In this document: one piece after another, positions 7,443 to 11,544 of the stretch
Layout: every line of letters begins with the position of its first letter
Position numbering within the stretch: position 1 is the first letter of the stretch
DNA from: Streptomyces afghaniensis 772
GTDB lineage: Bacteria > Actinomycetota > Actinomycetes > Streptomycetales > Streptomycetaceae
NCBI GenBank assembly: GCA_000415505.1
Contig: KE353995.1
Coordinates: 1 to 32,675 of the forward strand
DNA: 32,675 nt
Direction of reading: 5' to 3'
Made by a program: the position numbers and the translations under genes
The notes under the pieces: model-generated
The model's database searches: none
What the model saw: only the letters and a program-made list of their open reading frames with translations
What the model was told of the DNA's origin: nothing

Positions 7443-7496
7443 AGTTACTTCGCGTAACAGCCGCTAAAGGACATCACAACAGCCACATTGTCCTTT
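7443..7496 (+). promoter_or_regulatory. AT-rich upstream region with two inverted repeats, candidate operators
   Basis: Between leuS and the redox module the DNA becomes unusually AT-rich. It holds GTTAC-N5-GTAAC (7444-7448 and 7454-7458) and AAAGGACA-N15-TGTCCTTT (7466-7473 and 7489-7496). These look like dimeric-regulator sites for the rightward membrane/NuoF-like genes. The regulator is unknown, and no clear -35/-10 pair can be assigned. Confidence 0.4.
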
Positions 7497-7594: not shown

Positions 7595-7660
7595 ATGAAC
7601 CCTCATCGCAGTAACAGCTCGCTACGCCCCGTCACCGGGATGTGGGGAGGCCGGCCGTGA
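7595..7660 (+). CDS. Small upstream ORF (21 aa), overlapping the start of the membrane redox gene
   Basis: ATG at 7595 follows a GGAG ribosome site with 8 nt spacing and reads MNPHRSNSSLRPVTGMWGGRP. Its TGA (7658-7660) overlaps the GTG start of the next gene (7657-7659) as GTGA, the usual translational-coupling arrangement. Third-position G/C is about 75%, lower than the neighbours, so it may be a coupling leader more than a functional peptide. Not recognised. Confidence 0.4.
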   Translation: MNPHRSNSSLRPVTGMWGGRP

Positions 7661-8922
7661 CGAACTACGACTCCACGGTGGACGACTCGTTCGCCGACTT
7701 CCTCAACTTCGGCGCCGGCGTGCTGTCCCTCGTGTGTCTCTCCTGCTCGGTGATCTGGGGACTGGTCGCCCAGGACCGGATCCTGCTGGACACGCGCAGG
7801 CGCATCCTGGCGCAGGCCGTGCACCGGACCACGGCGGTCGCCTCGATCGTCTTCCTCCTGGTGCACATCGGGGTCAAGCTGGCGCTCGCCCACACCACGT
7901 GGGTCGCGGTGTTCATCCCCTTCGGTCTCATCGCCAGCGACAACGACGAGATCATGGGCCGGTCGTTCCTCGTCGGCCTCGGCACCCTGGCCAGCATGCT
8001 CATGATCTTCGTGGGCGTCACGGGCGTGCTGCGCAACCGTTTCGCGTCCCCGGCGCCGGTCGCGGCCCGCTGGCGGGCCATGCACATGCTGGCCTACCCG
8101 GCCTGGTGCGCCGCCCTGGTCCACGGCCTCTACGCGGGCCGCCAGGCCAAGCCGATTTTCGTCATCCTGTACTGCGTGTCCCTGGTCGCCGTGGCCGGAG
8201 CCCTCGCCCTGCGCGCCGCTCCGCGCCCGGTCAAGCGCAAGGTCGCCGACAAGTTCGCCCAGCTCATCGGGCCGGGGGACGGTCTGGGCCGCAGGGACCT
8301 GGAGGAGAGCCGGGCCCGGGCGGGCACCGGCTCCGCGCTGCCCGGCTACGAGGGCCGGGACACGCCCGTGGGGGCCATGACCTCCTCGTCGGGGCCGCGG
8401 TACGAGAAGGCGGAGCGCGCCGCTCCGCAGGAGTCCACGAACGGCTTCGCCGCGGCCTACCGGGCCGTCTCGAGCCCGCCCCTGGGCCAGCAGGCGTTCG
8501 CGCCGGGACCGACCGACCGCGCGGAACTGCCGCTGGACATGCAGGCCACCCAGACCATCCCGACCGTGGACGGCCCCTCCAGCACCTCGGGCAACTGGCC
8601 GATCCCGTCCCCGCCCCCGGTCGGCGAGGCCCCGCCGTCGGCCTACGACCCGCTCCAGGACACGGGCTTCAACATCCCGCCCTACGACCCGCTCCAGGAC
8701 ACCGGACAAAGCATCCCGGCCTATGGCAATCCAGGCGCCGCCGGCTACGGATCGAGTGACGTGTACGACACGGGTGAGACGAACGCCGTCTACGACACGT
8801 ACTACCCGAACGACACGTACAACAGCGGTCCCGCCACTGAAACACTGCCCGGTGCGTCCTACGACTTCGACGCACCGGGATCGGGCGAACCTTGGAACAC
8901 GCCTTCCGGAGGCTTTAAGTGA
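7657..8922 (+). CDS. Ferric-reductase-like/cytochrome b-type membrane protein with long low-complexity tail
   Basis: The product is 421 residues. I prefer the GTG at 7657, which is preceded by GGGGAGG at 6-7 nt, over an in-frame GTG at 7642. Residues about 18-185 form about six membrane segments. Histidines at 56 and 70 (H-X13-H) and at 143 and 156 (H-X12-H) lie in separate helices, the spacing of bis-haem ferric-reductase/NOX transmembrane domains, so two b-type haems are likely. The cytoplasmic tail (about 185-421) is disordered and rich in Pro, Gly, Tyr and Ser, with YDPLQDTG repeated twice. The stop overlaps the NuoF-like gene (GTGA), which suggests that the flavoprotein passes electrons to this membrane protein. 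The electron acceptor is unknown, and no separate FAD/NAD domain is present in this polypeptide. Confidence 0.72.
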   Translation: MTNYDSTVDDSFADFLNFGAGVLSLVCLSCSVIWGLVAQDRILLDTRRRILAQAVHRTTAVASIVFLLVHIGVKLALAHTTWVAVFIPFGLIASDNDEIMGRSFLVGLGTLASMLMIFVGVTGVLRNRFASPAPVAARWRAMHMLAYPAWCAALVHGLYAGRQAKPIFVILYCVSLVAVAGALALRAAPRPVKRKVADKFAQLIGPGDGLGRRDLEESRARAGTGSALPGYEGRDTPVGAMTSSSGPRYEKAERAAPQESTNGFAAAYRAVSSPPLGQQAFAPGPTDRAELPLDMQATQTIPTVDGPSSTSGNWPIPSPPPVGEAPPSAYDPLQDTGFNIPPYDPLQDTGQSIPAYGNPGAAGYGSSDVYDTGETNAVYDTYYPNDTYNSGPATETLPGASYDFDAPGSGEPWNTPSGGFK

Positions 8923-10535
8923 ACGAGGCTTTGCCTGACGTACCCGAAGTCCGCGTAGTCGGCCTTCCCCAGCTCACGTCCGGCTTCGACCTTGTCGATC
9001 GGCTCGACCTGCCCATGCACCTGAAGGTGCATGGGCCACTCGAGCCGATGGGCGGCGAGCAGCTCGCGCAACTCGCCGAACGCATCAACCTGAAGGGCCG
9101 CGGCGGCGCGGGCTTCCCCTTCCACAAGAAGCTGCGCTCGGTCGCCGAGGCGGCGATCAAGCGCGGCGTCCGGCCGGTCGTCGTCGTGAACGGCAGCGAG
9201 GACGAGCCGGCCTGCCGCAAGGACACGGTCCTGATCAACCGTGCTCCCCATCTGATCCTGGACGGCGCACTGCTGTGCGCCGAGGCCCTGGGTGCCCGCA
9301 CGCTCGTGGTGGGGGTCACCCGTGAGTCCACACAGCGCTCCATGGAGGCCGCGCTCGCCGAACGCGGCCTCAACAACGGCCGCCGATCGGCTCTCCGCGC
9401 GCGCGTGCAGCGCAATCCGGTCCGCATGGTCACCGGTGCCGCCGCGTCGCTGATCCGCTCCATCGACGGCGGCCCGGCCATCCCGCCGGGCCGCAAGGTC
9501 AGCGCCTCGCAGAACGGCGTCGGCGGCGCCCCCACGTTGCTGTCCAACGCCGAGACCTTCGCCCAACTGGCCATCGCCGCCCGCATCGGCCCGGAGCGCT
9601 ACGGGAACACCGGCCTGTACGACGAGCCGGGCACCGTCATGCTCACGGTCTCCGGTGCGGTCGCCCGCCCCATGGTGATCGAGGTCCCCACGGGCGTGCC
9701 GCTGCGGTACGTCCTCCAGCTCGCCGGCGCCCCGCCGGTGCCCCAGGGCGTGCTCACCGGCGGCTACCACGGCAAGTGGATCGACGCGGCGACGGTCAAC
9801 GAGGCGATCGTCTCGCGCAACTCCCTTGACGCGGTGGGCGGTGCGCTCGGCGCCGGCGCGATCCTGCCGATCACTCAGGAGACGTGCCCGCTGGGCGAGT
9901 CACTGCGCGTCGCCCAGTGGCTGGCGGAGGAGAGCGCGGGCCAGTGCGGCCCCTGTTACCTCGGCCTGCCGGCCGCCGCGCGCGGCCTGGAGGACATCCT
10001 CAACGGCGGCGGACCGGCCGCTCTGGAAGCCCTCAAGCAGGTCGCCAAGAACGTGAAGCGGCGCGGCGCGTGCTCGCACCCGGACGGCTCCGCGATGTTC
10101 ATCGAGTCGACCATCAAGGCGTTCACGGACGACCTGGCCGCCCACGTCCTCGGAAACGGCTGCGGACGGCCCGTGGAGGGCGTTCTGCCGCTCTTCGAGG
10201 GCGGCAGGGCCCCTACGGGCATCCCGGGCGGCGGCGAGTCCGAGGAGAACGGCCCCAGCCGCCAGAAGATCTTCGTCGACTGGACGCTGTGCCGGGGCCA
10301 CGGCCTGTGCGCGGACATCCTCCCCGAGGTGTTCCAGCTCGGCGCCGACGGCTTCCCGACCGTGGCGCAGGCGAAGGTGCCGCGGTACGCCGAGGACAAG
10401 GCTCTACGCGCGGTGCGCCGCTGCCCGGCGCTGGCCCTGCGCATCGAGGAGGACACGCGCGCTCAGGGCGGCGCGCCGTCCCGCAACCTCCCGGTCCTGT
10501 CCCAGGGCCGCGGCCGCCGCGCCCTCGGCCGCTGA
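8919..10535 (+). CDS. NuoF-like NADH-binding flavoprotein fused to a C-terminal ferredoxin
   Basis: 538 residues. The N-terminal two-thirds resembles complex I subunit NuoF: the FMN/NADH glycine loop GRGGAGFP (60-67), VVNGSEDEPACRKD (90-102), and an SLBB-like segment around 240-290. The Fe-S region reads ESAGQCGPC with Cys343, Cys346 and later Cys385, but Ala340 replaces the first cysteine of the NuoF consensus (ESCGxCxPC). The C-terminus (about 449-510) is a separate small ferredoxin with CRGHGLC (Cys458, Cys464) and RCP (Cys502), a three-cysteine pattern typical of actinobacterial [3Fe-4S]-type ferredoxins. It overlaps the upstream haem-protein gene. No other complex I genes are here, so this is probably not the nuo operon. 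Inferred path: NADH to FMN to ferredoxin to membrane haem. Confidence 0.82.
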   Translation: MNEALPDVPEVRVVGLPQLTSGFDLVDRLDLPMHLKVHGPLEPMGGEQLAQLAERINLKGRGGAGFPFHKKLRSVAEAAIKRGVRPVVVVNGSEDEPACRKDTVLINRAPHLILDGALLCAEALGARTLVVGVTRESTQRSMEAALAERGLNNGRRSALRARVQRNPVRMVTGAAASLIRSIDGGPAIPPGRKVSASQNGVGGAPTLLSNAETFAQLAIAARIGPERYGNTGLYDEPGTVMLTVSGAVARPMVIEVPTGVPLRYVLQLAGAPPVPQGVLTGGYHGKWIDAATVNEAIVSRNSLDAVGGALGAGAILPITQETCPLGESLRVAQWLAEESAGQCGPCYLGLPAAARGLEDILNGGGPAALEALKQVAKNVKRRGACSHPDGSAMFIESTIKAFTDDLAAHVLGNGCGRPVEGVLPLFEGGRAPTGIPGGGESEENGPSRQKIFVDWTLCRGHGLCADILPEVFQLGADGFPTVAQAKVPRYAEDKALRAVRRCPALALRIEEDTRAQGGAPSRNLPVLSQGRGRRALGR

Positions 10536-10647: not shown

Positions 10648-10658
10648 CTCATCTGTTG

Positions 10659-10731
10659 TGGAGCTAAGGAGAATTGAACTCCTGACCTCCTGCATGCCAT
10701 GCAGGCGCTCTACCAACTGAGCTATAGCCCC
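10659..10731 (-). tRNA. tRNA-Ala (anticodon GGC), copy 1
   Basis: The 73-nt minus-strand gene folds as a full cloverleaf. The acceptor GGGGCTA pairs with TAGCTCC, giving the alanine identity pair G3-U70. The D arm has AGCTCAGTTGGTAGAGC, the anticodon stem is CCTGC/GCAGG with loop ATGGCAT (anticodon GGC), and the T arm carries GTTCAAT. CCA is not encoded; the discriminator is A. The sequence is identical to the copy at 11472-11544. Confidence 0.97.
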
Positions 10732-11462: not shown

Positions 11463-11471
11463 CTTGAAGCG

Positions 11472-11544
11472 TGGAGCTAAGGAGAATTGAACTCCTGACC
11501 TCCTGCATGCCATGCAGGCGCTCTACCAACTGAGCTATAGCCCC
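11472..11544 (-). tRNA. tRNA-Ala (anticodon GGC), copy 2
   Basis: Identical in all 73 positions to the copy at 10659-10731, including the G3-U70 acceptor pair and anticodon GGC. It has its own candidate promoter and terminator, so the two copies appear to be separate transcription units. Confidence 0.97.

Follow-up and report, generated by a model that had tools for sequence, protein, structure and literature searches.

A NuoF-like flavoprotein fused to a ferredoxin and its ferric-reductase-type membrane partner beside leuS in Streptomyces afghaniensis 772: a probable electron-transfer pair

The stretch of Streptomyces afghaniensis 772 analyzed here (GCA_000415505.1, contig KE353995.1, positions 1 to 32,675; 32,675 nucleotides, hereafter the window) carries on its forward strand two overlapping genes. 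The first, at 7657..8922, encodes a membrane protein of the ferric reductase domain (FRD) type; its longest open reading frame (ORF) opens at GTG 7642, the start at 7657 being better supported (see below). The second, at 8919..10535, encodes a NuoF-like flavoprotein of 538 residues fused to a single-cluster ferredoxin, as judged from the ORF and its domain matches. The end of the membrane-protein gene and the start of the NuoF-ferredoxin gene share the four bases GTGA. The pair lies between leuS, on the opposite strand, and a gene for tRNA-Ala(GGC). An initial annotation of this DNA had proposed such an overlapping pair, and both ORFs were found in that place.

Of 397 matching loci the best 80 were retained; all of these Streptomyces loci have both genes, and the first gene ends in GTGA in 78 of them. 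The NuoF-ferredoxin protein is 100% identical to its S. coeruleorubidus counterpart, and the ratio of nonsynonymous to synonymous substitution rates (dN/dS) of its gene was 0.05–0.15 in seven comparisons. With both frames open in 80/80 loci and a low dN/dS, a pseudogene or spurious ORF was ruled out. In the same number of comparisons, dN/dS was 0.31–0.59 for the membrane part of the partner protein and 0.44–0.95 for its tail; the membrane protein thus evolves much faster than the NuoF-ferredoxin protein. A viral or mobile origin was also considered, and two scans of viral contigs found no relative. We conclude that the pair is real and conserved and that it probably functions in electron transfer.

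More specifically, the two proteins are probably the subunits of a transmembrane NAD(P)H oxidoreductase, in which electrons would run from NAD(P)H to flavin mononucleotide (FMN), iron-sulfur (Fe-S) clusters, haem and finally an outer or quinone acceptor. The gene pairing, the homologies and the conserved motifs are the basis of this reading, and from them we infer the cofactors, the order and direction of electron transfer and the acceptor. The coupled NAD(P)H-flavin-Fe-S-haem module of the initial annotation is supported by the sequences and by the co-occurrence of the two genes, as described in the following paragraphs.

The second protein matches four Pfam families above their cut-offs: Complex1_51K (107 bits), SLBB (29), NADH_4Fe-4S (63) and Fer4_15 (54). 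Its NuoF part aligns with hydrogenase, formate dehydrogenase and NuoF chains of the PDB (7p5h_B, E 5.1e-36; 8e9g_F, E 3e-33), and the FMN-binding loop GRGGAGFP was located by alignment at 9096..9119 (+). Against TIGR01959, the NCBIfam equivalog of NuoF, it scores 165.7 bits where the cut-off is 558.65, so that it is not assigned to that equivalog. This low score, together with its position in a separate clade (support 100/99), ruled out a remnant of complex I. The domain scan, which took in the pair and ten further window proteins but not every ORF of the window, found no complex I subunit besides the NuoF-like one, as the initial annotation had stated.

To place the protein, a tree of 59 proteins was built, in which 51 NuoF-like proteins fall on one side of a branch with support 100/99 and eight serve as outgroup. 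The distant loci were hand-picked, most of them from the upper part of the match list, and do not represent a random draw. In the tree and the residue counts, L012, L033 and L070 (from the 80 near-identical Streptomyces loci) and L100 stand in for the others; L146 (alignment failed), L170 (assembly gap), L176 and L177 (close Streptomyces) and L174 (too short) were left out of both. The motif pattern first used was too tight for 10 of the 80 Streptomyces loci, and the alignment shows the same motifs there.

The strongest new point concerns the N3 cluster site, whose altered signature runs through the whole clade. The first part of the site, SAGQCGPC (residues 339–346, at 9933..9956, +), contains Cys343 and Cys346 and has Ala340 in place of the first Cys; the second part, at 10071..10088 (+), reads Cys385-Ser-His387-Pro-Asp-Gly. 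The window protein thus reads ESAGQCGPC where the complex I NuoF of the same genome (at L119, with NuoA and NuoB, named by eye, beside it) reads ESCGKCTPC, and it has only three of the four Cys of an N3 site (A340, C343, C346, C385). The replacement of the first Cys, which the initial annotation had pointed out, holds for the entire clade (Ala in 48 proteins, Ser in 3), in which Cys343, Cys346, Cys385, His387 and Pro388 are all invariant (51/51). Position 387 in the eight outgroup proteins is Leu (6), Thr or Phe, and His in none. Since the three remaining Cys are invariant, the N3-type cluster is altered and probably not lost: of the two outcomes first proposed, altered or absent, the latter is the less well supported. 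That His387 is a cluster ligand is a guess; most outgroup proteins have Leu there.

The same alignment bears on when the Cys was lost. In the outgroup the first N3 Cys is kept in the complex I NuoF of the genome and in a formate-dehydrogenase-like protein; it is Ala or Ser in the other six, which are sister NuoF-like proteins free of any FRD partner (L126, L147–L150 and L153). The Cys was therefore lost before the link with the membrane protein arose, and it is the His that tracks this link. Ala also occurs where the ferredoxin is a separate gene, so the substitution predates the fusion as well. The suggestion that the fused ferredoxin took over as the exit after the Cys had gone is, on these grounds, less well supported.

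The FRD-free sisters have a ferredoxin gene beside them in 5/6 loci; L148 lies near a ring-hydroxylating oxygenase and L153 beside a Rieske protein. It is possible, from this context, that they are unrecognized oxygenase reductases. By extension, the window protein could be a soluble NAD(P)H:ferredoxin reductase serving oxygenases, with the membrane protein as a mere anchor or redox sensor. The fused ferredoxin belongs to a type reported to serve P450s (PMC6237146), which would fit. Such a role is nevertheless improbable: the membrane protein keeps all four predicted haem-ligand His, which an anchor would not need; the genus sample retains the two genes as a pair; and no oxygenase was found among the ten window proteins scanned.

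The fused ferredoxin itself occupies 10266..10448 (+; Fer4_15, 54.4 bits). The initial annotation had described a three-Cys ferredoxin, and C458, C464 and C502 are indeed present in the arrangement C-X2-H-X2-C ... CP (CRGHGLC, C458-X2-H-X2-C464 ... C502-P), which agrees with the single-cluster motif CXX?XXC(X)nCP; a [3Fe-4S] cluster is expected. Solved relatives include 4id8, 8amp and 6mcw (E 5e-6 to 7e-5). Ferredoxins with a residue other than Cys at that place of the motif have been isolated as [3Fe-4S] proteins, and the His-type ferredoxin of Mycobacterium tuberculosis is reported to have a potential of -31 mV (PMC6237146). In contrast with these P450-system ferredoxins (PMC6237146; 4id8, 8amp), with which it shares the motif and the single-cluster domain, the window ferredoxin is fused to a NuoF-like reductase and encoded beside an FRD gene instead of a P450. 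A ferredoxin is fused or adjacent in 48/51 clade members.

Electrons might also flow in reverse, from an outer donor to NAD(P)+ or ferredoxin inside, given that flavoproteins of the complex I type are generally known to be reversible. With a potential near that of the M. tuberculosis protein (-31 mV, as reported in PMC6237146), reduction of NAD(P)+ would be uphill unless energy were put in, and no energy-coupling subunit was seen in the locus. We therefore hold this direction to be very improbable.

The NAD(P)H site of the flavoprotein is in part remodeled. In the 51 clade proteins, the Arg and Phe of the FMN loop GRGGxGF are kept nearly throughout, and the Lys that follows the loop and both Glu of NxxExE are kept in all. 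The aromatic residue of PPFP is replaced in the alignment, often by basic residues. The second Glu of the GEET motif probably selects NADH, and changing it in E. coli NuoF reportedly allows NADPH to be used. This Glu is retained in 15 of the 25 clade proteins of the ApbE layout (described below) and lost in all 26 of the fused type (Ala in 12, Gly in 12, Ser in 2), which leaves NADH, the donor named in the initial annotation, a candidate. Acceptance of NADPH by the fused form may be regarded as a lead.

In the membrane protein, two His pairs are the predicted haem ligands: H61-X13-H75 at 7822..7866 (+) and H148-X12-H161 at 8083..8124 (+), numbered from 7642. These pairs of di-haem type, noted in the initial annotation, are invariant in 55/55 aligned proteins, the His spacing being part of the pattern by which the proteins were selected; both motifs were found in 55 of 56 candidate ORFs, the exception being cut by a contig end. 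Five helices can be discerned by eye, the first FRD helix having been lost in the clade of the window. We found this loss in 23 of the 74 loci that could be classified (six of the 80 could not). In the window, what remains of the old N-terminus is a leader ORF: the ancestral start codon at 7595 now opens a leader of 21 codons (7595..7660, +), the TGA of which overlaps GTG 7657 in the sequence GTGA. A leader of 21–39 codons is present in 22 of the 23 helix-less loci, and in those 22 loci, as in the window, an RTG overlapping the leader stop is in frame with the FRD ORF; in the twenty-third (L086) the FRD ORF is in frame and simply shorter. Because this overlap recurs, the start at 7657, which had been the first choice, is favored over 7642.

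The protein ends in a low-complexity tail of about 200 residues, which we read from its charge pattern as probably cytoplasmic. The long, repeat-bearing tail of the initial annotation stands in part: the repeat is real (YDPLQDTG, a 39-bp unit in 2.1 copies at 8642..8723, +) and small, and tails of at least 200 residues are limited to 12 of the 13 proteins listed for the Streptomyces clade to which the window belongs and to L160 and L161. In 16 of the 18 listed proteins of the ApbE layout, the tail has fewer than 65 residues. The same 12 of 13 Streptomyces-clade proteins end in a GE[PS]WxxPxG motif, which L173 lacks. A further tail motif, T-x-x-[IM]-P at 8548–8562, is TQTIP in the window and TEAIP or TEAMP in other Streptomyces tails; we take it to resemble a Ser/Thr-kinase site. 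Some FRD proteins of the ApbE layout (L128, L131, L133, L139, L145) carry an extra C-terminal sequence, judged on inspection to hold one more helix and an outer portion, which could possibly be a new ApbE substrate.

Two gene layouts were found in the clade. One has the order ApbE, FRD protein, NuoF-like protein and separate ferredoxin, and the other, to which the window belongs, has the FRD gene followed by NuoF fused to ferredoxin, with no ApbE. Among the 25 relatives of the first layout, ApbE is present in 21 and the ferredoxin is a separate gene in 22; in the other 26 clade members the ferredoxin is fused. A branch with support 93/87, recovered in 96% of 200 bootstrap trees, separates the fused type from the remaining proteins; when the tree is rooted with the outgroup, the fused type lies inside the ApbE layout. 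One fusion and the loss of ApbE from the locus is therefore the simplest reading: the ancestral operon would have contained ApbE and an unfused ferredoxin gene, and the window form would have fused the ferredoxin and lost ApbE. The description of the pair as an orphan is consequently right with respect to complex I and not with respect to context, relatives having an ApbE-FRD-NuoF-ferredoxin operon.

An FRD match lies within 5 kb for 48/51 clade members, and across 47 loci the distances of one protein track those of the other (Mantel r 0.87; reached by 0/2000 permutations). Among 28 genomes of the genus, 22 have both genes, five have neither and one (G123) has a remnant of the NuoF-ferredoxin gene in two frames, without its N-terminal part and with no FRD match. 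In the five genomes without the pair, no FRD gene was matched, and the NuoF matches are all weak, in the range of complex I (best E 1e-32 to 1e-34). In a class sample of 296 genomes, 57 have an FRD match, and a NuoF-like neighbor was present within 5 kb for 53 of 60 FRD matches among the matches listed. Checking of the seven apparent FRD-only places found a NuoF-like neighbor for two of them (L193, L196), which makes 55/60, the seventh, G020:C245, being outside the check. The initial annotation would have been refuted had the two genes occurred independently in most genomes; they go together in the genus and largely in the class.

Several observations weigh against the proposed oxidoreductase. 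The PF01794 (Ferric_reduct) match of the window protein is 21.1 bits, below the cut-off of 28, and when the window profile is compared with the three ordinary FRD proteins of this genome, nothing significant emerges (probability 2.9%). Part of the NAD(P)H site differs: both Glu of GEET are Ala in the window, which reads GAAA. Three of the 51 clade members (L125, L127, L143) have no FRD match nearby. Conversely, four of the 60 FRD matches in the class (L192, L194, L195, L197) have no NuoF-like neighbor, L192 being a second FRD gene of G143, one of the 22 genus genomes that have the pair. Outside the class, FRD matches occur in 17 genomes, and in the 13 loci examined, one from each of 13 genomes, a NuoF-like gene was near the FRD gene in only one and ApbE in 11. 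Finally, the correlated distances and the co-occurrence also follow from inheritance as one locus.

On the first of these points, three relatives of the ApbE layout exceed the PF01794 cut-off (38.0, 29.1 and 32.5 bits), and the family profile of the window matches relatives of this layout (98.6%, E 6e-16), which is why we assign the window protein to the FRD family. Among fused-type relatives, one scores 16.1 bits and one has no match. From the FRD matches without a NuoF-like neighbor it follows that an FRD protein can use other donors, and from the counts outside the class that the FRD-ApbE link is the wider one, the NuoF-like donor being a speciality of some actinobacterial lines. In the same genome, the three ordinary FRD loci have the NAD-binding domain inside the FRD protein, with FMN_bind and ApbE close by. 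Unlike these, the FRD protein of the window has no NAD-binding domain of its own, and the NuoF-like protein would thus fill that role.

The surroundings of the pair differ between lineages. It is beside leuS in 89/89 Streptomyces loci (80/80 in the first search and 9/9 further ones) and in 0/16 other fused-type loci. Within the stretch fetched, 13 of these 16 loci have a DUF1996 gene (L120–L124, L157–L159, L162–L166) and 12 also have a DUF4142 gene. Neither family was found near the leuS-side form or in the 25 ApbE-layout loci; one of the ordinary FRD loci, L190, shows a partial match of 62 bits at a contig end, and in the genome of the window DUF1996 matches twice, away from the pair. Several His and Cys of DUF1996 are kept in at least 13 of 14 aligned proteins. 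Among solved structures, DUF1996 has no relative and DUF4142 only a weak one (E 0.018). As known redox partners, DUF1996 and DUF4142 were therefore rejected, and no published link was found in searches of the open-licence literature, the one paper naming both being a database paper. A search of the same literature by locus tag gave one paper, on DNA methylation, that names SCO2571. A secreted metal protein is a fair candidate for the electron acceptor.

These neighbors also bear on whether the acceptor lies within the membrane, in which case the pair would be a non-pumping NAD(P)H:menaquinone reductase whose FRD protein passes electrons to quinone, as proposed for MsrQ. PMC8238504 presents MsrQ as the subunit that binds quinone in its system, and the leuS-side form has no DUF1996 or DUF4142 gene near it. 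However, the DUF1996 and DUF4142 genes of the non-leuS loci and the ApbE of the other layout hint at an outer partner, and we consider the menaquinone reductase a possibility, less probable than not by a clear step. Regarding flavinylation, ApbE and FMN_bind matches of the genome of the window fall on contigs C422, C461 and C492 and none on the contig of the window (C290). At E 0.01, a profile built from two FMN-binding domains of this genome gave no match in any of the 25 ApbE-layout loci; it did find the three ordinary FRD loci, two of them its own sources and one (L191) an independent control.

The immediate neighborhood in the window is less informative. The other scanned proteins include DegV, a histidine phosphatase, RsfS, a LytR-CpsA-Psr protein, an aldehyde-dehydrogenase-family protein, an amino-acid kinase and a glycosyltransferase, and two more have no family match; none tells what the pair does. 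Between leuS and the pair lies a palindrome, GTTACTTCGCGTAAC (7444–7458), which resembles a regulator site; TTAC-N3-GCGTAAC is kept in 14/14 aligned rows. Downstream, two tRNA-Ala(GGC) genes are found 0.8 kb apart, at 10658–10731 and 11471–11544.

Compared with NuoF/Nqo1 and the flavin subunits of NAD-linked hydrogenases and formate dehydrogenases, the window protein shares the FMN, SLBB and N3 domains but lacks the first N3 Cys, the second Glu of GEET and the PPFP aromatic; it has a fused ferredoxin and no complex I partner among the proteins scanned. With FRD proteins that have their own FAD/NAD domain (NOX, FRE and bacterial ferric reductases), the membrane protein shares the four-His arrangement by motif, whereas it lacks that domain and is proposed to receive electrons from a separate NuoF-like protein. 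The closest description is that of Meheust et al. 2021 (eLife, PMC8238504), who reported 1797 MsrQ-like clusters, of which 1437 have the NAD-binding domain built in and 31 include a NuoF-like protein (PF10589), and concluded that some MsrQ-like clusters use NAD(P)H. The composition is therefore not undescribed, as had at first been believed. In that subset a PF01794 membrane protein is encoded with a NuoF-like protein; the window has the NuoF-like partner, with a PF01794 match below the cut-off, and the ApbE-FRD-NuoF operons found in this study may be the same subset. The overlap is unsure, since the ApbE of L130 and L131 has no obvious signal peptide by eye, and the inclusion rule given in PMC8238504 is an ApbE, FMN-binding, DUF3570 or DUF2271 gene within five genes, one with a signal peptide or lipidation site. 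The window locus falls outside this rule, its contig having no ApbE or FMN_bind; DUF3570 and DUF2271 were absent from the ten window proteins scanned, no genome-wide search having been made for either. In the main text of PMC8238504 and PMC11334425, as far as it was covered, no mention was found of the missing Cys, the conserved His or the ferredoxin fusion. The pair belongs to a little-described actinobacterial family, of a known but uncharacterized kind.

Returning to the proposed oxidoreductase, its most likely function is the NAD(P)H-driven reduction, across the membrane, of quinone or an extracytoplasmic acceptor. The cytoplasmic NuoF-like domain would take a hydride from NAD(P)H onto FMN and split it into single electrons, which would reach the fused [3Fe-4S] ferredoxin domain by way of the altered N3-type cluster, held by three Cys and perhaps His387. 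From the ferredoxin, each electron would go to the inner haem of the FRD protein, then by the second haem towards the outer side and there to its acceptor, a quinone or an extracytoplasmic metal or protein. In a more daring form of this scheme, which we put forward as a speculation and think unlikely as a whole, His387 of the FRD-linked NuoF would replace the first N3 Cys and give a high-potential Cys3His [4Fe-4S] or [3Fe-4S] relay to the fused, likewise high-potential, [3Fe-4S] ferredoxin and on to the transmembrane haem; the fused form, lacking the NADH-selecting Glu, might use NADPH to reduce a secreted metalloprotein of the DUF1996/DUF4142 type.

The replacement of Cys by Ala or Ser together with the conserved His is a natural variant of a very well-studied Fe-S site and would allow a direct test of ligand exchange against potential. 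If the proposed electron path is correct, the NuoF module of complex I would supply a transmembrane haem wire with a ready-made flavin head, and a respiratory part and a ferric-reductase part would combine into a machine for electron export. In these antibiotic-producing bacteria, the pair would then be a donor for reactions outside the membrane.

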